Origin: Podaxis mareebaensis
Taxonomy: Eukaryota; Basidiomycota; Agaricomycetes; Agaricales; Agaricaceae
Assembly (NCBI GenBank): GCA_018524725.1
Contig: JAEUWP010000521.1
Coordinates: 1 to 34,133 of the forward strand
Direction of reading: 5' to 3'
DNA length: 34,133 bases
Positions 7,037 through 34,133 of the stretch are shown piece by piece (position 1 is the first letter of the stretch; each line of letters opens with the position of its first letter). The position numbers and the translations under genes were made by a program. The notes beneath the pieces were generated by a model, which saw only the letters and a list, made by a program, of their open reading frames with translations, had not been told where the DNA came from and did not search any database.

Positions 7037-7041
7037 CATAA
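7037..7041. repeat. Target-site duplication of Gypsy-1, left copy (CATAA)
   Basis: CATAA immediately precedes the LTR start at 7042. The same five bases follow the other LTR at 18157-18161. A perfect 5-bp duplication fits Ty3/Gypsy integration. Confidence 0.93.
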
Positions 7042-7732: not shown

Positions 7733-7749
7733 GTATTCCCCCCTTAAGG
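7733..7749 (-). promoter_or_regulatory. Polypurine tract of Gypsy-1
   Basis: On the minus strand, CCTTAAGGGGGGAATAC directly abuts the 3' LTR, the expected place for the plus-strand primer of reverse transcription. A near copy lies at 13736-13753. Confidence 0.8.
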
Positions 7750-7877
7750 CTGAGCCCTTGAGGCCTTGAGGCAGCTGACTTGGAAATGAAGCCTAAGTGA
7801 TCAGGAGTTATCAGAATGTGTATCTGGGTCGGAACTCATCAAAAAAATTTTTGTTCCAGCCTTCCCCTCATACCCTC

Positions 7878-9078: not shown

Positions 9079-9090
9079 AAGGGCCTGTGA

Positions 9091-9296
9091 GTCCCCTTGC
9101 CTCCTTATGCCCTCATGCAGAGTTCATTCATTTTCTTGGAATGTAGTATTGCAATGTCATTGGAATGTTTTTTGTGAATATAAGTGAATGTTTTGTCTTG
9201 GTCCCAGAAAGTGTGAAAATAAGAAAATGAAAATGAAAATGAAAATCAGAAACTAAGAAGAAATGATAAGTAAAAAAGGACAATAGAAATGGAAAC
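9091..9296. other. Convergent 3' region with GAAAAT microsatellite
   Basis: This is non-coding sequence between the end of the antisense gene and the end of pol. It is purine-rich, with about four GAAAAT-like repeats at 9217-9246. It probably holds the 3' ends of both transcripts; no specific signal is recognised. Confidence 0.5.
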
Positions 9297-13420: not shown

Positions 13421-13428
13421 GCTAGAGT
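13421..13428. repeat. hAT target-site duplication, right copy (GCTAGAGT)
   Basis: It pairs with 10579-10586 and matches 7 of 8 bases. The Gypsy protein reads HTLA before it and GHF after the other copy, the expected uninterrupted integrase motif. Confidence 0.8.
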
Positions 13429-13735
13429 GTGGTCATGGTGGTACTGCAAGATGCAGAGGCAGAGGTTGTCAGAGTTGGGTACATAGATCCTGTCATCAAG
13501 TTGTAAGAAGCCATCAGAATCTACAGACCAACATCCTTTGGGGTTAGCAAGGTGCTCAGCTGTGGTTGGGTCATTAAGAAGAGCAGTGAGGATATCAGAA
13601 TGGAGTTTAAATGTATCCATGACCATGGCAGCACAAAGGGTTGGAGTGTAGAGGTAGGTAGCATGGATGGAGGCAGCAAGCTGTTCTTGGGTGAATACAG
13701 GCTGGAAATTGTGCAGATTGACTACTGAGTAGTTG

Positions 13736-13753
13736 CTATTCCCCCCTTTAGGG
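13736..13753 (-). promoter_or_regulatory. Internal polypurine-tract copy (candidate central PPT)
   Basis: On the minus strand this is CCCTAAAGGGGGGAATAG. It shares the 12-mer AAGGGGGGAATA with the terminal tract at 7733-7749. It lies in coding sequence between RNase H and the integrase (reading YPKGGNS). Confidence 0.45.
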
Positions 13754-17243: not shown

Positions 17244-17465
17244 GAGTGGCTCTTTGGTTGTGGCACTAAGAGTTCGAGAGTTGGAACAGGATGTGGGGAA
17301 TCAGGGAGTGGAGGAGCCAAAAGTGGCAGCAGAGGAATGGCAATGAGTGCCCAAAGGAAGTGGATGAGTGGGGATAGTGATGTTCTGTGAATGAGCAGTA
17401 GTACAAGTAATAGTTCTGGTAGTCATAGAAAAATGGCAATACCAGAAGTCAGAGTCTGAATATAC
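17244..17465 (-). other. Gypsy-1 leader between 5' LTR and gag
   Basis: This untranslated leader should hold the primer-binding site. The bases after the LTR read GTATATTCAGACTCTGACTT on the minus strand. The first TGG comes about 20 nt in, so I cannot name a tRNA primer. Confidence 0.5.
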
Positions 17466-18156
17466 TGTTACATTCCAGATGGGCACCTAGGGCATCAGGG
17501 AGCAGACCTCAGCCTCAGCTTATGTGCTGTACCCTTCCAGTATCGTGTTGGTCTGATTTGGACAGAGGTGGAACCTGGAGGCAGAAGGAACAAGAGACAG
17601 AGTGCAGATGAGCAGCAGGAGTGGTTGGAAGATGACCCAGAGGACTGATGAGCAGATCAGAGGAGGAGGAGGATAATGAAGTTGATATTCAGACTGAGGA
17701 AATGGATACAGGGAACTACTACACTTAAATATATGTTGAGAACTGGAAATGGGGAACAGGAAAATAACCAGAGAACAAAAGTGAGTACAAATGGGTAAAA
17801 CATTTCAGAGGTAAAGCAGGAACTGGAAGTGTGCAGAAGGTACAGGTATGGAGGCAGAATGGAAAGGAGGCTGTTCAGAATGTAATAAAACATAGAACGG
17901 AAGCAAGGAACAAATGGACTGAGGCAAGGGTAAAGGATCTGAGACGATAAAGGAAAAGTGAATGAACAACACTTGTTGCAGTGGTTGTGAGTGACCAAGT
18001 GCATGCACCTGCCTGTTCAGATAACAGGGTGGATGGAAATCCATCAACAGAACAAGTGGATCAGAGTTGTGTGAAATTGGAACATCAGATATCAGATTTT
18101 CGGACATCAGATAGGCATGGGAAAGTAAGCACAGACACATGCGAGTGGTTGTGACA
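17466..18156 (-). repeat. 5' LTR of Gypsy-1
   Basis: 691 bp, TGTTACATTC...GTTGTGACA on the plus strand. It is the ungapped partner of 7042-7732 and should contain the promoter of the genomic RNA. Confidence 0.95.
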
Positions 18157-18161
18157 CATAA
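18157..18161. repeat. Target-site duplication of Gypsy-1, right copy (CATAA)
   Basis: Identical to 7037-7041. It overlaps the left arm of an 11-bp inverted repeat, TAACCCATAGC / GCTATGGGTTA (18159-18169 and 18188-18198). Confidence 0.93.
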
Positions 18162-18198
18162 CCCATAGCTTGACCCTTCCACTGAGGGCTATGGGTTA

Positions 18199-18660
18199 AG
18201 AGAGAGGTGACTGTATGAGCTTAGATTCCATGTGTGTATGATGTAAATCACATGCTGTGATATAATATGATGTGTATACTGTACACAAATACCTATTGGG
18301 TCTGTCAGATTTAGTCTAGTCTAGTCTTCTAGGAAGAATGCTACAATGGGCCTGAGAATGTTGGAGCTTAGTAAGATTTGTCAGCTGTTGCTACTTTTAG
18401 CTGTTTTGATCAGATTTGCTAAACTTAGAAGTTTTTGATTGGATTTACTAATATTAAGAGTTTTGATCAGATTTACTAATATTAGGATTGATGATCAGAT
18501 TTGCTAAACTTAGGGATGCTTTGTCAGCTGACTAATAGCTGACTAATAGCTGACAAAGTGATGTCCCAGGCTTTTTAAAAAGTCAATCTATCAATCAGTT
18601 CAGTGATCTCTGTCAGCTTTGATGGCTGACAAATTGCTGTCATGTCTGATGGTCCCTTGT
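18199..18660. repeat. Non-coding block of short tandem and inverted repeats
   Basis: There are four diverged copies of a unit of about 28 bp (TTTTGATCAGATTTGCTAAA type) at about 18404-18517. A palindromic block with 11-bp arms CTTTGTCAGCT / AGCTGACAAAG follows at 18519-18558, containing two GCTGACTAATA repeats, with another GCTGACAAA at about 18625. One unit reads GATTGG where others read GATCAG, the TG/CA signature of a lost CpG. No gene is seen. It may be an LTR-like or MITE-like remnant. Confidence 0.55.
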
Positions 18661-18829
18661 TGCAAGTTCTATCTGCATTGTATACTTTGAATGGTTTCTC
18701 CAATTTCTTCATCAATATCTCCTGTTCTTTGACTGCCTTCTTTGCAATGCAGGTGTGTGTGCATCCTGAGTTGATCAGCATCATTGGTCTCCACTGCTGG
18801 TTTCTGGGTGTTTGAACCTTCAGTTTCAC
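18660..18829 (-). pseudogene. Gypsy protease fragment with catalytic Asp changed to Asn
   Basis: It reads MLINSGCTHTCI, where retroviral-type proteases have (I/V)DSG. The codon at 18770-18772 is AAC after ATC; GAC to AAC here is a CpG-to-CpA change. A short KPFKVYNADRT segment follows and then similarity fades. Confidence 0.65.
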
Positions 18830-18889
18830 AAAGAGTTCTCATGCTCCACTTCTTCTTTGAGGAATTGTGTATGATTGTCTAGAAGAAGC

Positions 18890-19947
18890 TTTAAATACAG
18901 CAGCTCAAGAGTTCATGCTCACTCTGAGCCTTTGGAAAAACCCTGCTGCTCTGATCCCTCCATGCCTTCTTGTTCCTCCTCCATCCTCCTAATATGTGCC
19001 CTCTTGGGTGCTCTGCAGTTTCTGGAGATGTGTCCTTCTTTGCCACAGTTGAAGCACCTTCTTCCTCCTGGCTTCTTGCAGTCTCAGGCAATGTGCCCTA
19101 TAGTGTTGCATTTGAAGCATCAGAGTGGTGCCTTGTTGCTGGGCATCATTTGTCTCCCTATCTCCATTGGTTGACCCATGCCTCCATATGTGATGCCTGT
19201 TCCCATGCATCTGGTTCAGGTTTCAACAGCTTCATATCCCAAGCCAATGTTTAGGATGGTTTCCTTCCATTGTTTGTAAGTGTCAAGCATTGCCTCAATT
19301 GGGAACCCCAATATGGTCTTGATGATGTCTGAGCATGTGTTCTTCTTGAGCAAGAATATGGTGTGCTTGTCATCTGTCTTGGATCTCATCTTCAATATGT
19401 CAAATTTGATGAGGATGTCTGCCATGTGTTTGTTGTTCTGCTGGTATGTCTCAATTCTCCACTCTGCATCATTTTGTTGTCCTTCATTCCTGAATGTTGC
19501 CTCTACTTCCTTCTGGAACATGTCCCACACAAGTGTGTCATTGCTGTTCTCCATCTGGTCAAGCTTCATGCTTGTGAATTGCCCTGCTGTTCCTCCTCTC
19601 ATCCACAAGAGTACTGCTATGGCCTTCCTGTCAGCCTCATTAATCTTGTTGAACTTCAAGAAAAATACCATTGACCTCCACCAGTCATCAAACTGGCTTC
19701 TATTCCCATCAAAAAATCCTGGATCAGGGACTAATGATTTCCCTCCTGTCTACTGAATTGCTGCTGTCTCTTTGGCTATGTTGATATCAATATCTTCTTC
19801 ATCTGCAGGTCCTTCTGGTTTTTCTTCATCTGCTGATTCCTCTGGTTGTTCTTCATTTGCAGGTTCTGGCTGGCTTTCAAGTTCTAACTTAGTGGTTTCT
19901 TTGTCATTCGTGTGCTTGCTCTCTGTAACATCTAAAAACTCCACCAC
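18890..19947 (-). pseudogene. Gag of the truncated Gypsy, with two CCHC knuckles
   Basis: From Met 19947 there is an acidic, repetitive lead (Glu/Pro/Ala-rich, EEKPEGPADEE type), then after one in-frame TAG the capsid-like domain (WWRSMVFFLKFNKI, MRGGTAGQFTSMKLDQMENSND, about 19,560-19,690). Further on are GNEGQQ-like and WRIETYQQNNKHMADI stretches. Two zinc knuckles close it: CFKCNTIGHIA*DC and CFNCGKEGHISRNC (about 19,020-19,110). The TGA inside the first knuckle sits where Arg is usual. The protein would package element RNA. It is the most readable part of this remnant. Confidence 0.85.
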
Positions 19948-20115
19948 TGATGGCTCTCTGGTTTGTCCTAGGCTGTACAGTGCTAGTGTTCCTTCTCAAC
20001 TGTTCCAAATATTGCTTCTGCTCATACACTGAGCCTTGCTCCTAGTTGAGCACTGGTGTTACACCTGGTTGCACCTCAATACATGCCCCTAGTTGGGCCT
20101 TCCTTGTTGCAAGGT

Positions 20116-20135
20116 GAGTTGGTGATGCTTTACCA
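20116..20135 (-). promoter_or_regulatory. Primer-binding site of the truncated Gypsy
   Basis: On the minus strand TGGTAAAGCATCACC starts 2 nt after the LTR end. TGG pairs with a tRNA CCA tail. The tRNA is not identified. Confidence 0.5.
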
Positions 20136-20137
20136 AA

Positions 20138-20397
20138 TGTTATGACCTTTATATGAACTCAGGTTGCAACTAAGCAAAGACTTGAGGATGAGCAAAGGGG
20201 AAAGAACTAGTTGGTAAAGCATAAGGAATACAGGTGCTCTACCTAAGGCTTATATACTGTAGAAAGGAAAACTAAGAATAGATGAAACAAGAGGATGAGT
20301 CAGTGGATGACTAAGGTGAGGTGTAACAAGGGGCTGAGACATAAGATGAAATAGTGTGCTGAGTAAGTATGTTCTAAATATAGCTGAGACTGTAACA
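20138..20397 (-). repeat. 260-bp LTR, minus orientation
   Basis: It starts TGTTATGACC and ends GACTGTAACA on the plus strand. It matches the reverse complement of 32344-32603 end to end, with a mix of differences including transversions. Homology stops exactly at TG/CA ends, so it is an LTR rather than a DNA-transposon terminal repeat. Confidence 0.8.
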
Positions 20398-20927
20398 CAG
20401 TTCAATAGCAGCAACTCCATCAGACAGTACAAAGAGCATGTACAACTTGCACAGGACATCATCTGCCTTTGGCAAGTCTACAATGATGTACATGAAGCCA
20501 CCCAGTTATTCAGCCAAGCAGTCCAAGCAGTTATTCTACAAGTCCAGAAACCAGCCAGAGGATCAGAGAGAGCCACCTAGATGAATCAACATGTTTACAT
20601 CATTCTCTACAACGCCAACAACTTCCTTGCAACTGACACAGGAGATAGATTCACTAGCATCCTTGTCATAGTGGCAGAACAGCTCTCCAAACTCCCCCCT
20701 ATCTGATGATGAAGAAAAAGAAAACTTCATAGCCTGCCTCATGGTAGCCACTCAAGGAAAAGACCTTTTCCCCCATAATGAATGCCTACTGACTTGACCA
20801 GCCACATACCACCATCCCTTGACAGACATTGAATCCAACAAAGAAGACCCCACCATCAAAGAAGAGGTCCAGCACCTCATCAAGTTCCTCACCCCCAAAT
20901 GCACTGGACCCATGACAGTTGAGCAAT
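20398..20927 (+). pseudogene. ORF of unknown function, 5' part, split by Gypsy-2
   Basis: The plus-strand reading includes QYKEHVQLAQDIICLWQVYNDVHEAT, MNQHVYIILYNANNFLAT, LVIVAEQLSKLPP, and after a frame change DDEEKENFIACLMVATQGKDLFPHNE, ending GPMTVEQ at the Gypsy-2 junction. The 3' part resumes at 31972 as RIPPVLFKTLKKYS, so removal of Gypsy-2 and one GCAAC copy restores the frame exactly. I recognise no domain. It ends just before a polypurine stretch and an LTR, so it may be an extra 3' ORF of a retroelement. It carries several stops (TAG, TGA). Confidence 0.55.
20923..20927. repeat. Gypsy-2 target-site duplication, left copy (GCAAT)
   Basis: The right copy at 31967-31971 is GCAAC. It matches 4 of 5 bases, and the split ORF becomes continuous when one copy is removed. 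Confidence 0.75.
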
Positions 20928-21168
20928 TGTAAGGGTGCACCCTTACACTTAATTTGAAAATCAAGTAACCCATGTTGCTGTATTATATTTTGATACCATT
21001 CTTGTTTACCCATCACTCCATCATCTATTTGTACCTACTGTTTATTAGGGCACTTTGGTTGTCAGGGACAACTGACCTTTGCTTGTGCCACATAGTCTCC
21101 CAATATATAGGTTTGAACTATTTGGTGTGAGTGTGAGGTCTTCCAACTGTAAAGCCTGAAGCTTTACA
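20928..21168 (+). repeat. 5' LTR of Gypsy-2
   Basis: 241 bp, opening with the 20-bp perfect palindrome TGTAAGGGTGCACCCTTACA and closing with TGTAAAGC-CTGAA-GCTTTACA (21148-21168). Confidence 0.94.
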
Positions 21169-21173
21169 TTTTT

Positions 21174-21194
21174 TTAGTTCACCGAGTGGACTAA
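21174..21194 (+). other. Hairpin directly after the 5' LTR
   Basis: TTAGTTCAC-CGA-GTGGACTAA: nine pairs including one T-G, with a 3-nt loop. It lies in the expected primer-binding region; no clear tRNA-complementary TGG is present directly at the LTR end. Confidence 0.5.
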
Positions 21195-21283
21195 CACATG
21201 AGCAAAATGCCCTATAACACCTAAACACTGCATACATGTGGCAACCAAGAATAACAATGCCCAACAAGCTTTGATGTGATAAC

Positions 21284-23985
21284 ATGTCAGATTCACCACC
21301 TAGTGGCAGTAGCTGCACTGACAATAATGGAGGAAAGGGAAATTATCCCCACTCCAGACTATTTAAATTAGAACCTGTCGACAATAGTCAACATAATGTA
21401 GAGAATCTGACTATGGGATCTAACACCACAGCCAGAAGCAACTCACATACTCTGCCACCAATAGAAGAGGAGAGTGAGCAACCATTGTCGCTTGACAGGG
21501 CACCATTGCCTGAGTTTAACACTGTAATATCGAGTGAATTATATACACTCGAAGAAAGAATTTCCCTCATTTTCAATGTGAATCATGTCAAAAGCCCTGT
21601 AAGAAGGGCAGAACTGCAATTCCACACAGAAGAATATACCATTGAGCTGTTTAAGAGCTCAACAGATATACCAATAGACCCTACATCAGAGATGTATAAG
21701 AATCTCCTATGTAAAACAATTAAATGACTTGCTTTGCTGTATAAGGCAGCAAAGCAACATAAAGGGGAACGACCTGAAACCCCCATGAATGAAATCTATC
21801 AAGCCATGCCTATGGCTCAATCAAGGAAACAAATGGATGACACAGGTGATGAGCACCTGTACAACCCTCTTTCCCAGGTAGAATCACCATCTGATGCTGA
21901 CCCTATGGTGGCACTTGGTGGCACCCTTGACAAAGGAAAAGCACCAATCAGAGGAACATCATCCTCTGTGGACCCAACCCCTTCAGAGTCAAGTATCACA
22001 ACATACTTGACCCAACAAGCCTTGGGTGAGCTGTTTGCCCCTCAAAAAATTGGTGAAAATGATGATGAATACTCTTGTCATCTAGAAAGCCAAACACAAG
22101 TGCTGACTGCCCTCAATAGGGCAATCCCCAATGTCTCTATTGCTCAACCAAGACCTATACAGAGTTCAGAAAAGCACTCTGTTAAAATTGATCTTAACCT
22201 GAGTGGAGGTGAGAGAGAAAAGTGGCTTGAAACTGGGCCATCCAAGCCCAGTATAGAATGTGCAGAATACTGGAGTGATCAAGTGGCACTCCAGCAGATG
22301 TGGAATGAAGATATTCGACTATATGGAAGGTCAAAAATACCAGACCAAGGCATCTGATTCATAGGAACAACCCCTGTAGACAGGGATGTCTTGGATGATA
22401 ATGACCTAAGGCAAGGAGCCTTGCATCCTCAATAACTGTTGTTACCACCACCCACAGCACATGCAGCCACACTAAGAGGAGTAGCCCCAGCTACTCCTCC
22501 AGTATATTCCCCAGCAGTACCACAACCCCAACTGGTTGTGGAAGTCATCAAGAGGAAGGATCCAATGAAGGGGAGGAATTATACCAACCCCCTGAAAGAC
22601 CAAGGCAAGGATATTCCCTTGTTAGAGACATACCACTGACCTTTGGGTCCCCAGGTGTTGCAAGCACCATTTGCAACCACACATGACTAATGCACAATCA
22701 ATTGAGTGCAACTATCTGAGAGTACCTCTCACAACCCTTTGAATTCCCAGAGGGGTACAGGCCTGGAAATAGGAAACCCCCCACTGAGAAAGGCCTGGAG
22801 CCTTACAGTGGGAGTCTGAGGTTTAGTGACCTCAAAAACTTTGTATCTGCACTCTGCCTAGACCTTGCATTAAAAGGTCTAGGTGGAATGGATCATACAA
22901 GGGACAGGCTGTGCCTGTATACCCTACCTTACCACTTAGCTGGAGAGGCCAAATGAATGATTGTTCAGCATGTTATAAATGTTAATTGAACCAAGTTTGA
23001 TTGGACTTTCAAGGAAGCAATCCTTGCTCTGTACAATCACTTCATGCTACCTACATCCATGCATGAAGTGAGAGAAGGACTCAAATAAGTCCATTATAGC
23101 CCTTGCATTGGAGTGCAAGGATACTATGACTCTGTCATGGATAATGCACAGTGCATGACTGTGCACCCTGATGATTACACCCTCATTGAGTTATTCCTGG
23201 AAGGAATACCTGAGGACATGAGGACAGACCTGCTATTTCATTGAGGTCTGTCCCCTGAAGCAGACTCGTTAGATGAGTTCCTTGCATACACAGTCTCATA
23301 TGAAAGCTGATGGAAACTGACATCATACTACCATCAGGCTCTTCATCTGAATAGTAGGGGAGTAGATCCCCTGATGCATAATAATTGTCCAGTACTGATT
23401 CAAGATCAATCTAGATCTCAAATGGCATTCATGCCCAAGAAGGTAGCAAATGGGCAAAAACAAATGCATATTTGAGAGTTACAGCAACTCTCACATGACT
23501 CAAAAAACAAAACAGCTCAACTGGATTACAAGTCGAGCAACCACCAAGGTGTGAGGTGGCCTAGTAAACTACTGGACCACAATGCCAATAAACCTACTGG
23601 TGCCATAAGATGTTATCACTGTGGTGGTAACCATTATGCCAGCTCAGACAAGTGCCCTTTGAAGGGTAAACCCTCACAGATTTGAGCAGCTCACACAGTG
23701 ATACCTGAAGATGGAGTATCTCACACAGGAGAAGAAGACAATGATCAGGCAGAAGATGACTGGCCTGATTATGAAGAAGAGGAGGATGATGTTGATGAAG
23801 ATCATGTGTCAACACAAGCCTCAGAAGATGGGTACACTGAAGTAACCATCATCAAGTCTGACTATGGATCTGATAGTGAGGACATGAACTTCCTTGCAAG
23901 TATCGATGATACTTCCACAGAGAGTGAAATAAATGTGCTCACTGATTACCCTGAGGAAGATGAGCCTCAAAATCAATGGGTTTGA
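21284..23985 (+). pseudogene. Gypsy-2 gag and gag-like N-terminal region
   Basis: Met 21284 opens an acidic, Ser/Asn-rich region without a recognised domain (to about 22,640). After a frame change comes the capsid-like part (LSQPFEFPEGYRPGNRKPPTE, SDLKNFVSALCLDLALKGLGG, LPYHLAGEAK; 22,720-22,960), and then EGIPEDMRTDLLFH*GLSPEADSLDEFL. A zinc knuckle CYHCGGNHYASSDKC (about 23,610) has spacing C-x2-C-x3-H-x6-C, not the usual x4/x4. A very acidic segment (EEEEDDVDEDH) follows before the protease. In-frame stops are mainly TGA. The long N-terminal extension before the capsid region is unusual. Confidence 0.8.
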
Positions 23986-24018
23986 AGAGTCACTCTTTGA
24001 ACCAATAAAGGAAAGATA

Positions 24019-27000
24019 TTGCACCCACAAATTGCCCCTTGTGAGAAGCAATGTCTTGCATCATATATCAGCATTAACAGCATTGAAGCCTGGATGCTCT
24101 GGGACTCAGGGAGTACAACCTCCAGAATGACCCCAGCCTTTGCTCAAATTGCTGACATTAAAGTCAGTGAATTAGAAGATCTGCACATGCTCCAACTGGG
24201 CACAGTTGGTAGTAGATCCACTGTGAAGTACAGCATGACTGTTGAATTAACAGTTAGGCCTATAAAAACCTCATCATACCTTGACATAGTGAACTTCAAT
24301 TGCTATGACATGATTATCAGAACTCCCTTTATGCATCAGCATAAAGTGAAGCTTGATTTCGAGAATTGAGCAGTTATCATTGATGGAGTCAGCATTCCAG
24401 CTACTGACACCATTGGTAATTCAGATATGTGGCTCTGTCGCCATCATTTGACCAATAAACATCAGTCAACATGACTATATGGAGGCAAAGAGCCCACTAA
24501 AAATTGAGTGATGGTAGAGGACATCACTGAAGCAAGTGGAATACATGCTGGGGAAAAACTCCCCCACAATTATCCCCATATCCTTGAGGAGATCCCCTTG
24601 AGGACAAGAAATGAAGACTATGGGGAGAAACTCCCCCACCCACAATATGTGAGTGAACCTAAATTTCACCCTATCATCTCAGTCAAAGATGAGTTACTAG
24701 CTTGTCAAAAGTGAGGACCACCAGTCTACAAATGACTCATCAAAACACTGGTCATCAAGGCAATGTACAACTGGTACTATGACCCACAGATGCCTGACAA
24801 ATGGAACACCATGGTATCAGGTGTCTGGTCAATGAAACAACCCACAGACGGACACCCACTGTCTACAGGATACACCCCAAGCAGTGTGGACAATATTGTC
24901 CACACAGAAGAATTCACCAGGATAAGGTACCCTGAGCAGTCTCTCAGGGACTATATCCATAGTATGACAGTTGTCTGTCTACCAATGGAAGATGACTGCA
25001 TAAAATGAATCAAGGACACATGTGCTTGATTCAAAACAAAGAAACCACCCAATAATTTGGGTGACCAGAACCAGTGCAAAATACTGCAGATTGAGCAGTG
25101 GTTGATGCATGACTACCACGATATGATGCAGGGAACACTATCTTGCCTACCCCCATTCTGAGAGGTGAATCATGAGATTCACCCCATTGAGGAGAACAAG
25201 TGATATAACTATCACTTGCCCAGATGCCCACAGTCATTACAGGAGGAGTTCCATGTAAAACTCAACCACTACATTGATGTGGGGTGGTGGGAACCCCACA
25301 ATGTTATGCAAGCAGCCCCTTTGCTTTGCATCCCCAAGAAGGATGGATGACTGCATACAGTTGTCAATGTGAAGGAGTGAAATGATAACACAGTAAAGGA
25401 TGTAACTCCTTTACCTGATCAAGAAGTAATCCACAAAGATGTAGCTAGAGTGAGATATCACTCTAAGATCAATCTAGCTGATGCATATGAACAGGTTAGA
25501 GTCTGACCTGAGGATGTGGAAAAGACAGCCTTCTCCACCATTGTGGGAACTTACAGACATCATCAGCATATTCATCCACATATACCTGGATGATATATTT
25601 ATATTTTCTAATTCTGTGGAGGAACGCAAGCAGCATCTACAGCTCATATTAGACCAACTCCACCAACAACAGCTCTACATCAAAGAGTCAAAGGTAGAAC
25701 TGTATGCAGACTGAGTAGACTGTCTTGGTCATGTAATAGACAATAATGGTATCCACCCTGATACTGATAAACTATCCCAGATCTGGGAGTGGAGAATCCC
25801 CTGCAACTATAATGACATGCAGAAATTTGTTGGACTTGTTAACTATGTGTCCAACTTTCTGCCAGATGTAACTGTGTATACTGGCCTGTTAATGGCCATA
25901 ATGCAGAATGGAACACTATTCCACTGGTGACTGTTACATCAGAGATGCTTTGATATGATCAAATGCATCTGTTGTAAAATGCCTATGATATGACTGATAG
26001 ATCCAAAGAATGGAGAACCCATATGGGTTATCTGTGACACTTTGAAAACCAGTGTCAGTGCCATGTATGGACAAGGCCCCAGCTGGGTGGACTGTTGCCC
26101 AGCAGGATTCATGTCTAAAAAGTTCTCTGCAGCACAGCAGAACTATGCTGTGCATGAACTCAAAACATTGGCTATCCTTGAAGCTTTACTGAAGTGGGAG
26201 GATAAGCTGGTAGGCTACCAAATCCACATCATTACCAATCATAAAGCACTTGAGTTTTTCAAAACTCAATCAAAATTGTCAAGCTGACAATGATGATGCC
26301 TTGACTATATGTTGAGGTTCAACTTTGACATAACCTATGTCAAAGGAGAATGCAACAAGATCACTGACTGTCTTCACAATAAGTGATCAACTGGGGTGAG
26401 CACCCCAGTGGGGAGTACATACAGGCTGACTTTCATATTGACCCTGAAGGAGATGATTTGCCAGCACCAAGATGAGCAGAGATACAATGTCTGCAAGATC
26501 AACTGGCAGCTATGAATGACGAAGGAGTCAGGTGAAGCACCAGACTCCAAAAAAAGCATGAACAATGAGATATTGAAGCTGAAGAGCTTCAAGAGGCAGC
26601 CACCCTCTGTGCTGTAGAACCAGATGTTGGCTGAGTGAAACACTCGACACAAAAATGCAAAACCAAGGGAATAACCCTTGGTGAGTCACTCTCTGCAACT
26701 GGTAACACTGCCAATTTCACCATTGGAGATGACTTCATTGATAAAGTCATTGCCAGCTACAATGCAGATTCATTAATGAGTATAGTCAAACAATCCCCAG
26801 AGAAGTATAGAGACTTCTCTGTAGATAACCAAGGAGTGATCATGAAGAAAACTCCCCTAGGAGACTGAATCATATGCATTCCAAATGACAGGCAACTCAT
26901 AACCCAGGTACTGACAAAGGCCCATGAAATTGTGGGATACCTAGGTGACCAGTGAACAGCAGAGTATGTCTGCAGATGGTACTAGTGGCCTTCATTGGTA

Positions 27001-28201
27001 AAAGATTGTCACAAGTTCTGTGGAACTTGTGAAATGTGTGCTCAAACCAAGACATTGAACACAAAACCCAGTGGAGAGCTACACTCTCTACCAGTTCCTA
27101 CCAAACCCTGGGACTCAATCAGGATGGACTTCATCAGTCCATTCCCAGAATCCAGAGGCTTTAACTATCTCTGGGTAGTTATGTGCCAGATGATGAGCAT
27201 GGTGCACTTAATACCAGTGCACACAAAAATGACAGTGTTGGAGCTGTCATGGGTTTACATATGAGATATTGTATGCTTACACAGACTACCGAGCTTGATT
27301 GTGAGTGATTGAGACTCAAAATTCACATCCACCTGGTGGAAAGAACTTCACAAGATATTAGGAGCCAAGCTCCTAATGTCAACTTCTTTTCACCCTCAAA
27401 CAGATGGCCAGACCAAGTGAATGAATTGCAATATTGGTCAGATCTTCTGTGCAACAGTACACTACAACTAAACTAATTGGGTCAACAAAGCACCATTAAC
27501 TGAGTTTGCAATCAACTCGAGCATCTCAGCTACCACAAAATACACCCCATTTGAGTTGAATTACAGATATATGCTGTCCATGATCTGGGACAGCCACAAT
27601 GCTGAAACCATCCACAAAGGGATAAAAACCTTTGCAGAAGCAGTGCTGCTAAACTTAGCAGCCACCCATAACACAATAATAGAATCATGGGTTTTCCAAA
27701 CCCACAATGCCAATAAAAAATGAGGGCCAGAACCTTGTATCAAAAAAGGAGACTTAGTCTACCTTTCTACACAGAACCTCTTGTTACCAAAGGACAGAGC
27801 TTGAAAGCTCTGTCCAAAGTTTATAGGACCCTACAAGGTCCTAGAATTGAAGCCAGAGACTTCCAATTACAAATTGGAACTGCCTCCAGTGTTATTACAC
27901 TGGAAAATCTATCCAGTGTTTCATGTAAACCTTCTGAGGCCATATCATGCCTCAGATGACACCTTATTCCCAGAGTGATCACAGCCCAAGCCATATGACT
28001 TCATGTTTGACAACAAGCACAAATGGTTCATTGGAGAGATCATAGGCCATCAGTTTACCAATGATGGTAAGATCAAATTTCAGGTCCAGTGGAGTCTGGG
28101 AGACACCACTTGGGAACCAATACAACACTGAAGAACTCATGGTATTGGATAGGTACCTGGAGCTGCAAGGGGTGTTGAAGGTTCAGCAACTTCAACCCTG
28201 A
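24019..28201 (+). pseudogene. Gypsy-2 pol: protease, RT, RNase H, integrase, chromodomain
   Basis: The protease motif WMLWDSGST is at about 24,100. RT has LLCIPKKDG*L, KE*NDNTVKDVTPLPDQ, LADAYEQVRV and, after a deletion, IYLDDIFIFSNS (YLDD at 25583-25594). The deletion near 25,548-25,556 removes roughly 25 codons expected between GTY and the YLDD strand and shifts the frame. RNase H has VICD, GFMSKKFSAAQQNY, AILEALLKWEDKL and TNHKALEFF (Asp changed to Asn, 26237-26239). The integrase has a CGTCEMC finger, RMDFISPFP, IVSD*DSKFTS and [10 protein letters not shown], where the catalytic Glu is Lys (27415-27417). KFIGPYKV precedes a chromodomain (HKWFIGEIIGHQF...QVQWSLGDTTWEP, 28,010-28,120). It ends at TGA 28199-28201. 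Between 24,019 and 25,560 I traced twelve in-frame stops, all TGA. Confidence 0.93.
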
Positions 28202-28217
28202 TCACAGCCTACCAGAA

Positions 28218-31200
28218 ATGGTAGGTACAAATCAGGTCAAAGAGATTAACTTTGACCCTGAGAATCCTACAATATATTACCAACAGCAACTTGCAAAGGT
28301 TGCCTCTTCTCTCCCTACAACCACCACCATGAACCCCCAGCACCCACAACAACCACAACAACCAACTTCTATGCCTCAGCAGAGCAGCACAAGTGGCTCT
28401 GCACCATCCACATCCCAAGGACCCTGGACAGGTCCTGGGAGGGGGAGGGAGTCAATGGACATGACTTCAGACCCCACCCCAACATTTATGAGTCAGCCTG
28501 AGCATCAACAAGGGCACCAAGACCCTCATCGCACCCTACTGTCGATGATACCAATGTCAATGTCTCAACACCCACAATTCAAGCAATGGCTGAATCAACA
28601 ATCCAGCCACCCTCCATTCAATCCCTACCCACAGGGCTACCTGAACCCTGCATACTACCCTCCTCTGCCACCAATGCTCCATCATCTGATGACAATGCCT
28701 TACCACCCCTATCATGCATTGCCGCTGCCACCAACTGCACTCCAGTTGGCCCATCACCATCACTACCCAACTGCACTGAGTGAATACACTTGGCAACTAC
28801 CTCACCCCATGCCTTCAATGACATCTGGGCCATCGAGAGCCAAAGGCAAACAACACACATCAGAGCAAGACTTACTCCAACAGCAATATGAGGAACAGAA
28901 CTTGGGCCTCATATCTTGATTACACGAGGTTGGGTTAAATGACCACCTCATTGACATGATCAACCCATTTGACAAGTTGATCAATCAAGTTCTCAATGAG
29001 CTCGTTGAGATTATACAAAACAAAAACATGCACATCAGTGTCCTTGAAGGATGCCTCCACCACCTCAATGACACACTCTCCACTGTACAGCAATCAAGAG
29101 AGTATGAGCTCAAGGCCACAATTCGTGCATCAAAAAAGAGGACCCTATCTGGTTCTCTAACACCTCCCAGTGGAGCCACCCCAGCTCCACTACAACAGCA
29201 ACAACAACCTGTGTTGAGCTCATCAGCTCGACCAAAATCATATGCTTCAGCTGCAAGTAATGCAATGACTTGCACATCCTCTACATCTTCCAAAGCAAGC
29301 ACCAGCAGTGCTTGCTCATCATCCTCATCCTCAAAGGCAGGTATGCAAACCAAGCTACTGCCTGTCACCTCCAAGAAGGTGAGTGCTCCCAGCACTCACC
29401 TGACTGCAACCTCCTCCAAGACTAGTACACCTAGCACTAGTCAAGAACCAACACCTGTCAAAAAGTTGTCCAAGTGAAGGTAACAGGATTCACCCATCAG
29501 GATAACTGATGAGTTGGTCACCCAAGAACCAGATGTCACACTCATCTATGATGACATCCCAATGGATGACACCCTGCTCCTGCCGATGACTGCTTCTGAG
29601 CAGTCATCGCATATTGAAGAACTACTGTTGGGACCTGGGATTCCAGGTCCCACCTCCCCCACATGCAACTACAGACCACTCATTCTGGTCCATCTCCCCA
29701 CCAAACTCAAGGATGCTCCTCAAGTTGTCCCCAACTACCTCACACCTGAGGACATGAACCCCATGTCCTCCAGTGAGGAGGAAGATGTGGCTGAAGACTT
29801 CAAACCCAAGAAGGGTAAGAAGAAGGCCCCTCAATTGTTGACCTCTAGGTCAACATCTCAACCAATCATCCATGACCTGCCAGGTTGTAACGGCATTATT
29901 CCATCCATGTGGGGACTATGGCAACACAGCCAAGTCCATAGTCACAAATGTGACAACAGCATGTGGAACATGTTGTCATGGCAAGTTCATTACTCACAAT
30001 GAACCAATACCATGTTTGCCAGCCACTGCCACCATTGCTGCAATGATGGAATATAAAGGCTGGGAGTTCAAAATCCCTGCCACTCATCCAGTTTATAAGG
30101 CAGCCCATTGTGGACTGCCTATGACCCCCTGCAAAGTAGAGAAGCTGATTAAGCTTCTCAATAATCATCATGCCAAAGCTGAGCATTGAGCTGAGGCACA
30201 CCACCTCCTGACTGAGCTCTACAAAATAGCTCAGTGCATGGAGGAGGGGCACTACGATGATGCAATGATCTTCCTGTTGCACCATAGTGGCTTCCACCCA
30301 GACATGCACCCATCTGGAATAACCACTGAGATAAGGGAAGAGCACCAACTGTTGTGAGCATACAAACAAGCTCATGTCTCAAATCCCAAAAACCAGACCC
30401 AGGGCATGGGAGCTGGCCTCCTCAATATCAACCATCTTGGTTGATATCTTCTTACCCATAGCCACCCAGGGTCCAACAACCTCATCAATGGTATCTTGTC
30501 TGAGCATAGACAGCTCATACATCATCGAACCACTTTTGGATACAGCCTAGCTCACTTCTTTGGGCCACCCGAATGTGGTCCTAATCATGCTGGCCAAGTG
30601 AGATTCACCCAGCTCTTTGCTGTCCTAGTCACATCACTGCAACTTTATAAAGAATATATTGAGCATTGGAACACTCAACATCCTGAACACCCCTTTGTCC
30701 CACAACTGGGACCAACATGTTATTTCTGATCACTTGACATTGATGATAGTCAAGTGCCAAATATGAACCTCAACACTGTCACTGAGGTCCTCATCCACAA
30801 TGGAGTTGACCCATCCTGGGTTGACCATGCTTACCTTTTTGGGATCCATTACTTGGATCAATCCTATACTGGTGAGCCTAGTCACCAGTCCATGTATCAT
30901 GACTGGGATGATGAACACATCTGTCATCTCAACCTATATGGACCACCCCCAGCCATCAAGAGATGGGACAGATGGTTCTACCCCAATGACCATGACCTTC
31001 TTAGGTTGTTCTTCTTCAAACAATGAGAATTCCTTCACACAGGGAAGGAAATGCAAGATGACCCCAGCTGGCTAAAGGCCAGGGGCCCCACTCACTTCCA
31101 CCTCCTAAGCAAGCAGGAGTACCCTCCACACCTGCTCAAGCCCCCAACCATACCTGTAGTTGATGGGCCCAGCAAATTGACTCTGCCCATTGCATCTAGT

Positions 31201-31374
31201 GAGGCTCAGGTTGAGGATCACCCCTCGACTGAAGCCCAACCAATGGAGGTTGATCATCCCTCCATTCTTCATCCTGAAAGTGAGTCATCACCCACTGATG
31301 CATCTGATGATGATATTGCATCATCAAACAGCTCCACACCCAGGGCTGGGAGAGCTTCATTGCTCCCCACCTAA
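28218..31374 (+). pseudogene. Gypsy-2 extra ORF (about 1,050 codons), function unknown
   Basis: The ATG is 16 nt after the pol stop, in another frame, and the ORF runs to TAA at 31372-31374. Parts: a Gln/Pro/His-rich N-terminus (28,320-28,800), a helical stretch (MINPFDKLINQVLNELVEI, 28,956), a Ser/Thr-rich basic linker (29,130-29,470), an acidic block (SSSEEEDVAEDFKPKKGKKK, 29,765), then, after a frame change near 29,885, a compact Cys/His-rich region (HPCGDYGN, CGTCCHGKFITHNEPIPC). A large helical domain follows (KVEKLIKLLNNHHAKAEH, LHHSGFHPDMHPSG, SLAHFFGPPECGPNHAGQV, YLFGIHYLDQSYTGEPSH, RWDRWFYPNDHD; 30,130-31,020), then an acidic Ser/Pro tail. The in-frame stops number about seven TGA and one TAA. 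No signal peptide, transmembrane span or catalytic motif is recognised, so it is not an obvious envelope protein. Confidence 0.65.
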
Positions 31375-31725
31375 TTTTCTATTGATGACAGGGGAGCAAC
31401 CTAGTTGCTCCACCATGTAACTATCCTCATCAAGTCTCATGACTTGATTCTACTTGTATCCTCTCCCAGGCCTCACCACCTGACCCCTATCATGGTCAAG
31501 TCTCATGACTCGACTCCCTACACACCCAGCCAAGGGGCTTTATCCCTTCAGCCTCACCACTCATTAAAACTGTATCTGAGTGACCTAGTCATCTTGGCCA
31601 TATACCCTATACCCTGAAACAGAGCATCTCATTTGTCTCAGACCTATACCTTATCATACATGACTATTTATTAATCCTCTCCTCTCTCACACCAAGAGAC
31701 TGTAAAACAGTCTGGAGGGGGTGTG
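31375..31725 (+). other. Gypsy-2 3' untranslated region and polypurine tract
   Basis: No gene is seen. It holds perfect hairpins GGAGCAAC-CTA-GTTGCTCC (about 31,392) and ATCAAGTC-TCAT-GACTTGAT (about 31,429), a related GTCAAGTC-TCAT-GACTCGAC (about 31,497), and AGACTGT-AAA-ACAGTCT (about 31,698). The polypurine tract GGAGGGGGTGTG (31714-31725) abuts the 3' LTR. Confidence 0.75.
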
Positions 31726-31966
31726 TGTAAGGGCATGCCCTTACACTTAATTCAAAAATCAAGTAACCAATGTCACTGTATTATATTTTGATACCATTCT
31801 TGTTTACCCATCACTCCATCATCTATTTGTACCTACTGTTTATTAGGGCACTTCAGTTGTCGGGGACAACTGACCTTTGCTTGTGCTATGTAGTCTCCCA
31901 ATATACGGGTTTGAACTATTTGGCATGAGTGTGAGGTCTTCCAACCATAAAGCCTGAAGCTTTACA
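31726..31966 (+). repeat. 3' LTR of Gypsy-2
   Basis: 241 bp, an ungapped partner of 20928-21168. Its first 20 bases, TGTAAGGGCATGCCCTTACA, are again a perfect palindrome though changed at four central bases. About eight TG/CA swaps, two retained CpGs, one other transition and one transversion separate the copies. Confidence 0.94.
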
Positions 31967-31971
31967 GCAAC
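31967..31971. repeat. Gypsy-2 target-site duplication, right copy (GCAAC)
   Basis: It pairs with GCAAT at 20923-20927. Joining GAG CAA to CGC ATA across the site gives VEQRIPP in one frame. Confidence 0.75.
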
Positions 31972-32343
31972 GCATACCCCCTGTCCTGTTCAAAACCTTG
32001 AAGAAATATAGCAAAGAAGAAGAATATTGGAAGCAAATATTACAAGTTCTCATTGAGAAACACAGCAACACTGGTGCCATGTATTGAGGTACTATAATTC
32101 CCATGTATGGTAGAGGCCCTGACTATGCTCCATTCTTCATTGCCTGGAAGAAATCACCAACCAGTACTTCATTGGCCCCAATAAGAAGGATGTCACTCAT
32201 AAGATCACCCATTGACTATAGAATCCACTGACTTTCAAAGAAGCCCAGAATTTCCTAGCTCATTTCACTTTTTCAGTATGCTGTAACTTACATGGCCCTT
32301 TACAGTAGTTTCATGTGGTCATGACACCTTAGGAGGAGGGTGA
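31972..32343 (+). pseudogene. ORF of unknown function, 3' part, split by Gypsy-2
   Basis: It continues 20398-20927: RIPPVLFKTLKKYSKEEEYWKQILQVLIEKHSNTGAMY*GTIIPMYGRGPDYAPFF, then frame changes and AEAQNFLAHFT- and TYMALYSSF-like segments. A purine-rich stretch (TTAGGAGGAGGGTGA) sits right before the LTR at 32344, as a polypurine tract would. This suggests the ORF is the 3' end of a plus-strand retroelement. A TGA interrupts it at MY*GT, where Arg is plausible. No domain is known to me. Confidence 0.5.
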
Positions 32344-32603
32344 TGTTATGGTCTCATTTATATTTAGGTCACACTTACTCAGCTTACCATTTCATCTTAT
32401 GTTTCAACCCCTTACTACACTTCACCTTAGTCACCCACTTACTCATCCTCATGTTTCACCTATTCTTAGCTTTCCCCTCATCAGTATATAAACCCTAAGT
32501 GGAGCACCTGTATTCCTTATGCTTTAGCAACTAGTTCTTTCCCCTTTGCTCATCCTCAAGTCTTTGCCTAGTTGCAAGCTGAGTTTATACAAAGGTTGTA
32601 ACA
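32344..32603 (+). repeat. 260-bp LTR, plus orientation
   Basis: TGTTATGGTC...GGTTGTAACA. It is the inverted partner of 20138-20397 and is preceded by a polypurine-like stretch. A TATA-like TATATAA occurs at about 32,486. Confidence 0.8.
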
Positions 32604-33139
32604 TCATCAGCCTCAATCAAACCATCTTAGTGTCCTCAGTGACCTTGCTATTCACAATAATCACAACAGCTGGACTCTATCAAGGAACTCAGTGCTTCCA
32701 ACTTGGATTCCAAAGCTGATAGATTTGCAAGTGATTGCAATCAGTTAGAATACCTCAGACTCTTTCTTGGTCTAGTAGGATACTCTTAGAGTGGATGTAT
32801 GCATATCAACCTCAGTTAATGGTAGACCACTGAGTGTATTTACCTGTAGTGGGTGTGTAACTACAAGATAATCAGTAATGATACAAAATACAAACAGCAG
32901 AATACACATACACCTCAGTTGATGGTAGGCAACTGAGAAAGACAAATGGAGAGGTCCACTACATAACTCATACCAGAAAAGGAAAGTCATGTGATGTCAT
33001 TAATCAATGTAGTCTAATAAATTTAGCAGAAAACTTTATAATGGGCCACATAGTGTAATGGTATGTTGTTCTTGTCTGTTGTTGCATCTTGTTTAGTTGC
33101 TTCTCTGTAGTATTGGGTTCAATTCAACTAAGGTACAAT
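32604..33139. other. Intergenic stretch, no gene recognised
   Basis: Two related short hairpins are present, CTCAGT...ACTGAG (32811-32834) and CTCAGTTG-ATGGTAGG-CAACTGAG (32914-32937), and a tRNA-like stretch near 33,043-33,130. Nothing else is seen. Confidence 0.5.
33043..33130 (+). ncRNA. Possible decayed tRNA or tRNA-derived SINE head
   Basis: TAGTGTAATGGT (33051-33062) resembles a pol III A box and GGTTCAATTCA (33116-33126) a B box, in the right order and about 55 bp apart. The D and T stems pair poorly, and no 3' acceptor strand matches the 5' GGGCCAC. CpG loss could explain part of this. Weak call. Confidence 0.25.
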
Positions 33140-33142
33140 TCC

Positions 33143-34133
33143 TTACAAAACCGAACCCATATGGCCCTCCAACTGGGCCTCCACTACGCCTGTCCCTGCA
33201 TTCCAGATCCTCACCATCCGATCCACCGATCCCGAGGCGACTCGTGCGCCGTCGGGCGAGAAAGCGACCGAGCACACCTCACCCGTGTGGCCCTCCAACC
33301 GGGCCTCCTCCTCGCCTGTCCCCGCACTCCAGATCCTCACCGTCCCATCCTCTGATCCCGAGGCAACTCGCGCGCCGTCGGGCGAGAAAGCGACAGACCA
33401 CACCCCACCCGCGTGGCCCTCCAACCGGGCCTCGACCTCGCCTGTCCCCGCATTCCAGATCCTCACCGTCCCATCCTGTGATCCCGAGGCAACTCGCGCG
33501 CCGTCGGGCGAGAAAGCGACCGAGCGCACCCAATCCGTGTGGCCCTCCAACCGGGCCTCGGCCTCGCCTGTCCCCGCATTCCAGATCCTCACCGTCCAAT
33601 CCTGTGATCCCGAGGCGACTCGCGCGCCGTCGGGCGAGAAAGCGACCGAGCACACCCAACCCGTGTGGCCCTCCAACCGGGCCTCGGCCTCGCCTGTCCC
33701 CGCATTCCAGATCCTCACCGTCCAATCCTCTGATCCCGAGGCGATTCGCGCGCCGTCGGGCGAGAAAGCGACCGAGCACACCTCACCCGTGTGGCCCTCC
33801 AACCGGGCCTCTGCCTCGCCTGTTTCCGCATTCCAGATCCTCACCGTCCCATCCTGTGATCCCGAGGCAACTCGCGCGCCGTCGGGCGAGAAAGCGGCCG
33901 AGCGCACCAAACCCGTGTGGCCCTCCAACCGGGCCTCTGCCTCGCCTGTCCCCGCATTCCAGATCCTCACCGTCCCATCCTCTGATCCCGAGGCAACTCG
34001 CGCGCCGTCGGGCGAGAAAGCGACAGACCACACCACGCCCGTGTGGCCCTCCAACTGGGCCTCGGCCTCGCCTGTCCCCGCATTCCAGATCCTCACCGTC
34101 CCATCCCCCGATCCCGAGGCGATTCGCGCGCCG
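33143..34133 (-). CDS. WD40 repeat gene, C-terminal part (NLR/HNWD-like propeller), open at the window edge
   Basis: The frame is open from the window edge down to a stop at 33140-33142. The first Met in view (34096) is internal, so the start lies outside. Seven complete 42-residue WD40 repeats and partial ones at both ends are visible. The repeat core is LEGHTG...SVAFSPDGARVASGS.D.TVRIWNAGTGEAEAR, ending in the usual IW in place of WD. Repeats are almost identical except at positions 7, 9, 25 and 27, counted from Leu of LEGH. In fungi such long, near-identical WD40 arrays form the sensor end of NACHT-domain NLR proteins in heterokaryon incompatibility (HET-E/HET-D type); the NACHT part would be upstream, not seen here. 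The last repeat is cut short (LEGHMGSVL, stop). DNA is GC- and CpG-rich, unlike everything to the left. Confidence 0.9.
   Translation of the reverse strand, partial: GARIASGSGDGTVRIWNAGTGEAEAQLEGHTGVVWSVAFSPDGARVASGSEDGTVRIWNAGTGEAEARLEGHTGLVRSAAFSPDGARVASGSQDGTVRIWNAETGEAEARLEGHTGEVCSVAFSPDGARIASGSEDWTVRIWNAGTGEAEARLEGHTGWVCSVAFSPDGARVASGSQDWTVRIWNAGTGEAEARLEGHTDWVRSVAFSPDGARVASGSQDGTVRIWNAGTGEVEARLEGHAGGVWSVAFSPDGARVASGSEDGTVRIWSAGTGEEEARLEGHTGEVCSVAFSPDGARVASGSVDRMVRIWNAGTGVVEAQLEGHMGSVL

Follow-up and report, generated by a model that had tools for sequence, protein, structure and literature searches.

A Ty3/Gypsy retrotransposon of Podaxis mareebaensis with short local hairpins throughout its genome

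Gypsy-2 belongs to a clade of Ty3/Gypsy LTR retrotransposons in which short local hairpins crowd the entire genome, with about 50 in every 10 kb. It occupies positions 20928-31966 of the window, the whole stretch of 34,133 nt of contig JAEUWP010000521.1 from Podaxis mareebaensis that was analysed. On balance, sequence comparisons suggest that the hairpins are probably selected as genome-wide local structures of the replicating RNA or cDNA rather than of the inserted DNA, likely shielding the genomic RNA. A genome-wide hairpin load of this kind in an LTR retrotransposon is not named in the search listings of open-licence papers.

Anatomy and hairpin content

Gypsy-2 lies on the plus strand between direct repeats of 241 nt with 91% identity, the 5' LTR (20928-21168) and the 3' LTR (31726-31966). 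Direct reading of the sequence reveals a perfect palindrome of 22 nt where the 3' LTR begins (31725-31746). The interior (21169-31725) consists of a gag-like region, pol, and an extra downstream ORF region. The window copy has broken reading frames and a CpG observed/expected ratio of 0.07. The RT/RNase H part of pol (25478-26284) comprises three open stretches in this copy; a CpG-intact relative, L013, matches RVT_1 and two RNase H families. The integrase zinc-binding/core segment lies at 26986-27261, and a relative, L060, matches Integrase_H2C2 and rve. The LTRs and the order RT, RNase H, integrase, with domains taken from CpG-intact relatives and the integrase piece downstream, assign the element to Ty3/Gypsy. 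A Tf2-1-like SH3 domain accompanies the integrase H2C2 in the Gypsy-2 family, and a Chromo match behind the integrase of CpG-intact relatives is sub-threshold (23.3 bits against a cut-off of 25.1). The extra ORF region 3' of the integrase (28179-31371), traced in the window copy and in L060, has no Pfam match in either.

A scan for inverted repeats with stems of at least 8 bp and loops of at most 15 nt finds 54 perfect cases in 21168-31726, with stems of 8-11 bp and loops of 0-14 nt. Six have 11-bp stems (loop length in brackets): 21729-21757 (7), 23037-23071 (13), 24884-24905 (0), 27792-27815 (2), 29377-29401 (3), and 29584-29609 (4). Seven have 10-bp stems: 22476-22499 (4), 22857-22883 (7), 23222-23253 (12), 26323-26345 (3), 27009-27032 (4), 29629-29652 (4), and 30425-30447 (3). 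Ten have 9-bp stems: 21988-22011 (6), 25006-25033 (10), 25197-25218 (4), 26250-26269 (2), 26390-26409 (2), 26798-26821 (6), 27357-27377 (3), 29294-29316 (5), 29748-29770 (5), and 29836-29855 (2). The remaining 31 have 8-bp stems: 22270-22294 (9), 22520-22541 (6), 23145-23165 (5), 23473-23493 (5), 24327-24346 (4), 25164-25183 (4), 25278-25300 (7), 25393-25414 (6), 25446-25465 (4), 26132-26153 (6), 26573-26592 (4), 26662-26682 (5), 27645-27662 (2), 27861-27879 (3), 27885-27904 (4) and 27897-27919 (7), which overlap, 27933-27956 (8), 28235-28257 (7), 28886-28914 (13), 28957-28983 (11), 29169-29191 (7), 29914-29943 (14), 29951-29978 (12), 30139-30159 (5), 30211-30235 (9), 30731-30756 (10), 30868-30889 (6), 31242-31266 (9), 31305-31326 (6), 31393-31411 (3), and 31429-31448 (4).

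Forty dinucleotide shuffles of 21169-31725 predict about 3.0 such repeats against the 54 observed. By the same measure the rest of the window is unremarkable: 3 against 3.4 in the interior of a second element, Gypsy-1 (7338-17461), 2 against 2.0 in 1-7037, 0 against 1.1 in 17762-20927, and 1 against 0.35 in 31967-34133. Because the frames of the window copy are broken, codon-preserving shuffles were run on CpG-intact relatives whose open frames are long, from family A, to which Gypsy-2 itself belongs, and from family B, a distant sister with mostly 61-71% RT identity to A. Family A has 53 repeats against a mean of 2.96 and a maximum of 7 in 100 shuffles (two of its coding segments overlap by about 200 nt), and family B has 51 against a mean of 2.75 and a maximum of 6. 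As the original prediction held, the excess is real, lying far above both kinds of shuffle and above Gypsy-1, and it extends over gag, pol, and the extra ORF region. The original count of about 37 was too low, and the roughly eleven stems of 10-11 bp are in fact 13. All 15 of the listed examples exist, 14 with the correct stem length (30425-30447 has 10 bp, not 9), but a supposed isolated case in Gypsy-1, 15242-15255, spans only 14 nt, too few for a stem of 8 bp.

The excess is limited to short loops: 46 cases have loops of 0-9 nt and 8 have loops of 10-19 nt, and each further ten-nt bin as far as 200 nt holds 0-3. Gypsy-2 shows no surplus of short direct repeats (8, compared with 22 in Gypsy-1), and no shared loop motif was seen by eye among the 54 loops. 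Stems of at least 7 bp have a spacing CV of 0.76-0.79 against 0.95 for randomly placed points, which is judged to reflect no more than that hairpins do not overlap, rather than regular spacing. Controls include four unannotated host stretches and 20 RT loci hand-picked from two lists, for which 150 out of 501 candidates and 115 out of 356 had been scored. The second list contains 11 of these loci, and the other nine, of unassigned superfamily, come from the first alone. Five control RT loci reach at least 15 stems per 10 kb, all of them among these nine.

Folding, turnover, and constraint

In the window copy, the mean folding z is -3.82 and z falls below -2 in 31 of 35 tiles, against 0 of 33 in Gypsy-1. 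Across 300-nt tiles of the relatives, folding energy exceeds that of shuffles by 32.9% in A and 27.1% in B, with 132 of 136 tiles above 10%; codon-shuffle controls give 36.9% and 29.3%. The gain per tile on sense and antisense strands is 24.0 and 19.9 kcal/mol in A, and 20.1 and 17.7 kcal/mol in B. Sense z is lower than antisense z against dinucleotide shuffles (A, p 1e-5; B, p 0.012), and against codon shuffles the p values are 0.011 in A and 0.88 in B.

In the CpG-intact copies, with CpG observed/expected near 1, hairpins number 56 over 11.0 kb in A and 59 over 10.7 kb in B, and they are therefore not a product of decay. Stem density is 51 per 10 kb in A and 55 in B, yet only six of the 46 A stems with a mapped place in B pair there fully or save one pair. 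Density is thus kept while positions turn over, since most hairpins of the two families are at different places. Among the exceptions, 26323-26345 is common to family B (11 of 11 loci), 26132-26153 has a perfect stem in 3 of 11 B loci, and the L060 stem matching 30425-30447 pairs 10/10 in B, one pair by changes on both sides. The hairpin at 22857-22883 is perfect in all nine other copies ungapped there. Among the best kept is 26250-26269, which all 14 other A copies ungapped there have as a perfect stem, with 9 of 9 pairs in A-prime, the one close relative, and 0.89 of cells in B. Amino-acid identity between A and B, in well-aligned stretches only, is 0.719 in stem codons and 0.655 outside. 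A family-level count by the commonest pair per column pair gave 29 stems of at least 8 bp, fewer than in single copies, and was set aside as unreliable, since many pairs lack a majority owing to CpG decay and sparse 3' coverage. No relatives of Gypsy-2 were found in viral contigs; those in other species are known here as proteins only.

Divergence of A from A-prime, a single decayed copy, was measured with stems defined on the A copy only. At third positions, non-CpG divergence is 113/594 (0.19) in stems of at least 6 bp and 772/2186 (0.35) outside, and drift in stems at all three codon positions runs at 0.5 to 0.6 times the outside rate. This brake is absent from loops (105/301) and from long-loop decoy repeats (57/142 and 27/95). 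Double changes tend to restore pairing: 35 non-CpG pairs are changed on both sides against 12.7 expected, 23 of the 35 are still Watson-Crick, in 18 stems, and 7 of 8 wobble-wobble double changes are compensated. Between A and B, stems present in one family only are not slowed at third positions (0.634 and 0.511, against 0.593 outside).

Variation among copies dates this constraint. The comparison omits L014 and L016, which are partial, and L018 and L029, which occupy the same place as L015; its p values refer to the shared:singleton ratio. Shared variants number 12/624 in stems and 151/2495 outside in A (p 0.002), and 8/744 and 72/2014 in B (p 0.009). The frequency of singletons per site is 0.072 in stems and 0.081 outside in A, and 0.051 and 0.060 in B (0.039 and 0.062 in B with stems of at least 7 bp). 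Since singletons are nearly equal but shared variants threefold rarer in stems, the constraint acts in replication and not after insertion, and selection apparently preserves stem pairing only as long as the element is replicating. Such a comparison of shared and single-copy variants in stems is applicable to any multicopy retroelement.

Explanations for the hairpins

Selection for local hairpins in the replicating RNA or cDNA would make Gypsy-2 a case of genome-scale ordered RNA structure, whose individual hairpins would fold alone, fast, and locally. Together the hairpins may hide single-stranded RNA from Argonaute-guided pairing and from nucleases, while being too short to serve as good Dicer substrates, and may compact the RNA for particle assembly. 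Host RNAi genes are present in the genome. On this view selection rather than copying between arms would maintain the hairpins. The benefit would be distributed, so that any place will do, since A and B agree in density but not in most hairpin positions. The earlier suggestion of selected structure gains from the slowed third positions, the compensatory changes, and the replicative-phase constraint; the purposes it named, packaging, stability, or escape from RNAi, are possible ones. Gypsy-1, with length and CpG loss like those of Gypsy-2, has no hairpin excess, and that an equally long and decayed element manages without hairpins counts against this explanation. If the hairpins are selected, retrotransposons share the distributed RNA structure of persistent RNA viruses and carry it further, and RNAi-bearing fungi are a place to test the reason for it.

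Selection on sense RNA alone fits some details poorly. One-sided stem changes to A.C and G.U stand at 100:77, against 493:536 outside (p 0.04), opposite to what sense-RNA selection predicts. Stems holding G.U and A.C exceed expectation from dinucleotide shuffles 3.6- and 3.1-fold in A and 3.1- and 2.7-fold in B, slightly in favour of G.U, while codon-order shuffles give 2.9 and 3.3 in A and 1.7 and 3.0 in B, against G.U. G.U pairs are not consistently favoured, and their enrichment relative to A.C varies with the shuffle used. In silico selection of synthetic ORFs for folding of the sense RNA yields 4 perfect stems in 3960 nt, and other runs 6.5 or 10-23 per 10 kb, against 48 per 10 kb for real copies in the same tiling; selection of both strands at once yields 1 stem in 3960 nt, at 16%. 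Judged by these small simulations, which use simple hill climbing or, for the copying process below, simple mutation rules, the Gypsy-2 hairpins are more perfect than RNA-folding selection yields.

The rival that survives best, though unlikely, is arm correction during reverse transcription, in which the cDNA would fold back and one arm of an imperfect hairpin be copied onto the other; the hairpins would bring no benefit, and protein selection would filter the changes. The strand-switching that was originally offered as an alternative predicts just the over-perfect stems and the antisense folding gain close to the sense gain that are observed, and it ranks as a rival rather than the lead. The lack of consistent G.U preference and the restriction to the replicative phase agree with it, and the halved stem divergence and the double changes are also expected from it. 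In neutral simulations on synthetic ORFs, most settings of the first runs were too low in rate, the strongest giving 17.5 stems per 10 kb; two later settings reach 30 and 39 perfect stems in 10 kb, and the first of them resembles the real copies in stem length. At those two settings, however, the local folding gain is 16-19% against 47-56% in real copies, and stronger settings attain 46-51% only when stems number 121-122 per 10 kb. The simulation also required 0.3 to 1 trials of each nucleus for every 2% of mutation attempts. Shared variants occur on both arms in just one pair in A and none in B, and non-CpG differences from A-prime are not one-armed (38 in 5' arms and 47 in 3' arms, from 54 of 56 stems, two being gapped). 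The wobble-wobble register, found in only 18 of 104 stems of the CpG-intact A and B coding segments, is missed by arm correction (152/499, p 0.003) and by RNA selection (32/114, p 0.016); it separates the rivals poorly because both simulations give 0.28-0.31. Were the hairpins made by reverse transcriptase, they would reveal a mutation process writing hairpins across a genome.

It is doubtful that the hairpins are a built-in error check, whereby the arms store each other's sequence and the reverse transcriptase folds the cDNA back and rewrites a mutated arm. If so, genome-wide parity bits would slow the retrotransposon's own drift, and only during replication. Of similarly low probability is selection on hairpins of single-stranded cDNA, or of RNA and cDNA, for instance in RT pausing or jumping that promotes recombination. 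Only Watson-Crick pairs would then serve, because a G.U pair in RNA is a mismatch on cDNA, and the perfect stems, near strand symmetry, and replicative-phase restriction agree with this. Against such a putative DNA role, there is some sense-strand folding excess.

Host-genome processes after insertion, such as cruciform repair or methylation-linked CpG decay, are very improbable. Some window stems do owe their existence to C-to-T type changes absent from most other copies, and the CpG ratio of the window copy is 0.07, but CpG-intact copies are equally hairpin-rich, which refutes this origin for the bulk of the hairpins, and Gypsy-1 shows the same CpG loss without an excess. Host-side repair was rejected from the singleton and shared-variant comparison, singletons being nearly equal in and outside stems. 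Chance, composition, and codon use are refuted by the dinucleotide and codon-preserving shuffles, as tandem repeats are by the direct-repeat count, and this whole group has a negligible probability.

Comparison with known systems

Gypsy-2 presumably resembles the chromovirus-type Ty3/Gypsy elements of fungi in its LTRs, RT, RNase H, integrase with H2C2, Tf2-1-like SH3, and sub-threshold chromodomain, and differs from them in its hairpin load and in the long extra ORF region behind pol. Quasi-palindrome correction, or short template switching, perfects imperfect inverted repeats during DNA synthesis and leaves sporadic mutation clusters; as an account of Gypsy-2 it would need a genome-wide steady state.

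In yeast Ty1 and Ty3, SHAPE-MaP assigns up to 30% of the genomic RNA to stable regions (PMC11381356). Gypsy-2 shares with them an LTR-retrotransposon genomic RNA with dispersed structured regions, whereas short perfect hairpins throughout are not mentioned in the parts of that account consulted (PMC11381356).

The closest likeness is to genome-scale ordered RNA structure (GORS), which runs through the whole coding genome of viruses, its extent being kept while positions vary between relatives, according to the portions consulted (PMC7642675). The threshold for GORS is a difference in folding energy of more than 3% from order-shuffled controls, and the gain of GORS transcripts is 6-16% among the Table 2 rows listed (PMC3950689); the highest coronavirus mean cited is 23.4%, with single genes higher (PMC7642675). 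The Gypsy-2 relatives, at 32.9% and 27.1%, lie well above 3%, the structure is not confined to known elements (31 of 35 tiles of the window copy with z below -2), and between A and B its extent is conserved while positions are poorly conserved. Gypsy-2 differs from the viral cases in being an LTR retrotransposon, in its gain of 27-33% against up to 23% in the viruses consulted, obtained with different folding programs, and in its unusually perfect stems, in which G.U is not consistently favoured.

Hairpin density in Gypsy-2 and its relatives

The interior of Gypsy-2, a Ty3/Gypsy retrotransposon (21169-31725), is crowded with perfect inverted repeats of short loop: 54 with stems of 8-11 bp lie in 21168-31726, while dinucleotide shuffles give about 3. 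This bears out the excess over chance claimed in the original prediction. Its second claim, that other elements of the window nearly lack such hairpins, also held, as Gypsy-1 (the other LTR retrotransposon, interior 7338-17461) and the remaining parts lie at or near chance in such shuffles. In 300-nt tiles, folding of the window copy is 25% above shuffles, with z < -2 in 31 of 35 tiles; no tile passes this value in Gypsy-1 (0/33) or in 1-7037 (0/23).

The 10.6-kb interior runs from a gag-like region through a broken pol to an extra ORF region. The LTRs are 241 nt each (91% identity), and a perfect 22-nt palindrome (31725-31746) lies where the 3′ LTR begins. The gag-like region includes a stretch, spotted by eye, that we take to be zinc-knuckle-like. 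CpG-intact relatives encode RVT_1, RNase H, Integrase_H2C2, rve and Tf2-1-like SH3 domains (Pfam) and give a sub-threshold chromodomain match; a Pfam search of their gag-side and extra ORFs returned no match. The long extra ORF region, 3′ of the integrase (28179-31371), comprises two long frames of 779 and 299 codons in one such relative, again with no Pfam match. Among protein matches, the named reverse transcriptase (RT) relatives come from mushrooms, with 71% identity in Lyophyllum shimeji and 52-58% in Meripilus lineatus and Trametes, which makes a basidiomycete the likely host. An inverted repeat of 261 nt, 87% complementary, flanks Gypsy-2 on both sides (20137-20397 and 32344-32604), from which the element is possibly inserted within another. 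The contig ends in a tandem array of about 8 copies of a 126-bp unit (33145-34133).

Family A, to which Gypsy-2 belongs, occupies at least 15 other places in the genome (37 Mb, 429 contigs) at 87-92%; one more place lies at 74% (A-prime, a decayed close relative), and then there is a second, distant family, B. On contig C70 (L033-L035), the single A-prime copy adjoins an A copy in opposite orientation, and the two are possibly nested. Stem density is 32-51 per 10 kb in 14 of 16 A copies (those with at least 3000 aligned columns), 44-69 in 11/11 B loci examined, and 21 and 24 in two stretches of A-prime. Differences among A copies are 93% transitions and about 70% of CpG type. CpG observed/expected is 0.07 in both Gypsy elements of the window (7338-17461 and 21169-31725) and near 1 in some other Gypsy-2 copies; some insertions underwent heavy CpG loss. 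Two CpG-intact copies (ratio near 1) carry 56 stems in 11.0 kb (A) and 59 in 10.7 kb (B), and the codon-preserving shuffles proposed with the original prediction, run on these copies, yield only about 3. The hairpins are therefore a property of the undecayed element.

Among 115 scored rows, RT identity to the query is 58-100% in A and B (61-100% except for one partial row) and at most 35% in all others. Fifteen of 20 sampled non-A/B RT loci do not exceed 6.7 stems per 10 kb. At the other five RT loci (L055, L057, L068, L069 and L070), density reaches 15-25 perfect hairpins per 10 kb. The hairpins that L055 and L057 have in common, in opposite orientation, make these two look like a single family. 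Four 4-kb host stretches contain 0, 0, 1 and 0 stems. At a further RT locus (L066, C194:44700-46700; 33% identity to the query), folding is 21% above shuffles in sense and 9% in antisense with zero perfect 8-bp hairpins; this resembles conventional, G.U-tolerant RNA structure in a separate family.

Constraint and turnover of stems

Only 18/104 stems pair wobble positions with each other (p 0.0004 against one third); in this register, silent sites contribute least. Where A and B align well, stem codons show no reduction in amino-acid identity (0.719, against 0.655 outside). Judged from these coding sequences, the hairpins appear to be built at silent sites.

Between A and A-prime, with the CpG-intact A copy as reference and CpG-related sites left out, third-position divergence is 0.190 in stems of at least 6 bp and 0.353 outside (p 6e-15). 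Loops diverge at 0.349, and decoy inverted repeats, whose loops span 30-60 or 100-130 nt, at 0.401 and 0.284, neither value significantly different from outside (p 0.24 and 0.16). In stems, positions 1 and 2 of the codon diverge at only about 0.6 times the outside rate (0.077 vs 0.129 and 0.056 vs 0.101). Both partners changed in 35 pairs, where independence predicts 12.7; 23 of the 35 remain Watson-Crick, three of these via transversions on both sides.

Variants found in a single copy, mostly post-insertion, are nearly equally frequent in stems and outside, whereas variants common to at least two copies, which arose in the replicating lineage, are depleted about threefold in stems (p 0.002 in A, 0.009 in B). 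By stem cut-off, this test gives p 0.14 (A) and 0.02 (B) at 8 bp or more, and 0.002 (A) and 0.18 (B) at 7 bp. Since shared variants and not singletons are depleted, the constraint acts during element replication; it seems to end after insertion.

Hairpin positions turn over between families. In 3.3 kb around the RT, the sites of A and B are mostly non-coincident. Across coding pieces, 46/56 A stems can be mapped onto B, and 6/46 pair there fully or in all but one pair; one pairs 10/10, with one pair altered on both sides. Third positions are not slowed between A and B in stems found in one family only, as expected from turnover.

Candidate processes and known systems

The likeliest reading, and one we prefer by a modest lean, is that selection favours numerous local, uninterrupted hairpins in the RNA or cDNA during replication. 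The main rival, correction of one arm against the other during reverse transcription, strikes us as rather improbable. A neutral model of such correction yields 30 and 39 stems per 10 kb at two settings; synthetic ORFs selected for sense folding reach only 6.5-23 (real copies 48, same tiling). However, local folding gain at those settings is 16-19%, against 47-56% in real copies, and stronger settings match it (46-51%) only at 121-122 stems per 10 kb. The register of the stems in this arm-correction model is unbiased.

RNA-level selection should tolerate G.U pairs, and the synthetic ORFs selected for sense folding are enriched in G.U over A.C (2.5 vs 1.4; 2.3-3.3 vs 1.7 in another run). In the real stems, tests of interior mismatches, enrichment and one-sided changes gave no clear signal of such tolerance. 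Interior mismatches number 21 G.U and 23 A.C in A (random 2.7 and 4.7); the corresponding counts for B are 11 and 28, with 2.2 and 4.2 at random. Observed/expected ratios for stems holding G.U and A.C are 3.6 and 3.1 (A) and 3.1 and 2.7 (B) against dinucleotide shuffles, and 2.9 and 3.3 (A) and 1.7 and 3.0 (B) against codon-order shuffles. One-sided changes lean toward A.C. Neither simple model, sense-folding selection or arm correction, accounts for every feature; a mixture of both processes, or selection for uninterrupted stems, would fit them all.

If the hairpins are selected, shielding from RNAi, nuclease protection and packaging are possible benefits on equal footing. Shielding is possible because the host genome has matches to Argonaute (Piwi-domain), RdRP and RNase III, the last with two domains, Dicer-like, at two places.

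A close known parallel is the genome-wide structure (GORS) of RNA viruses. The mixed G.U tests qualify the likeness of the Gypsy-2 clade to GORS as RNA-level structure. Its folding gain exceeds the viral genome means consulted (PMC3950689; PMC7642675), a comparison made across different folding programs. As GORS is described in those sources, the hairpins of the clade resemble it in spread, strength and positional turnover.
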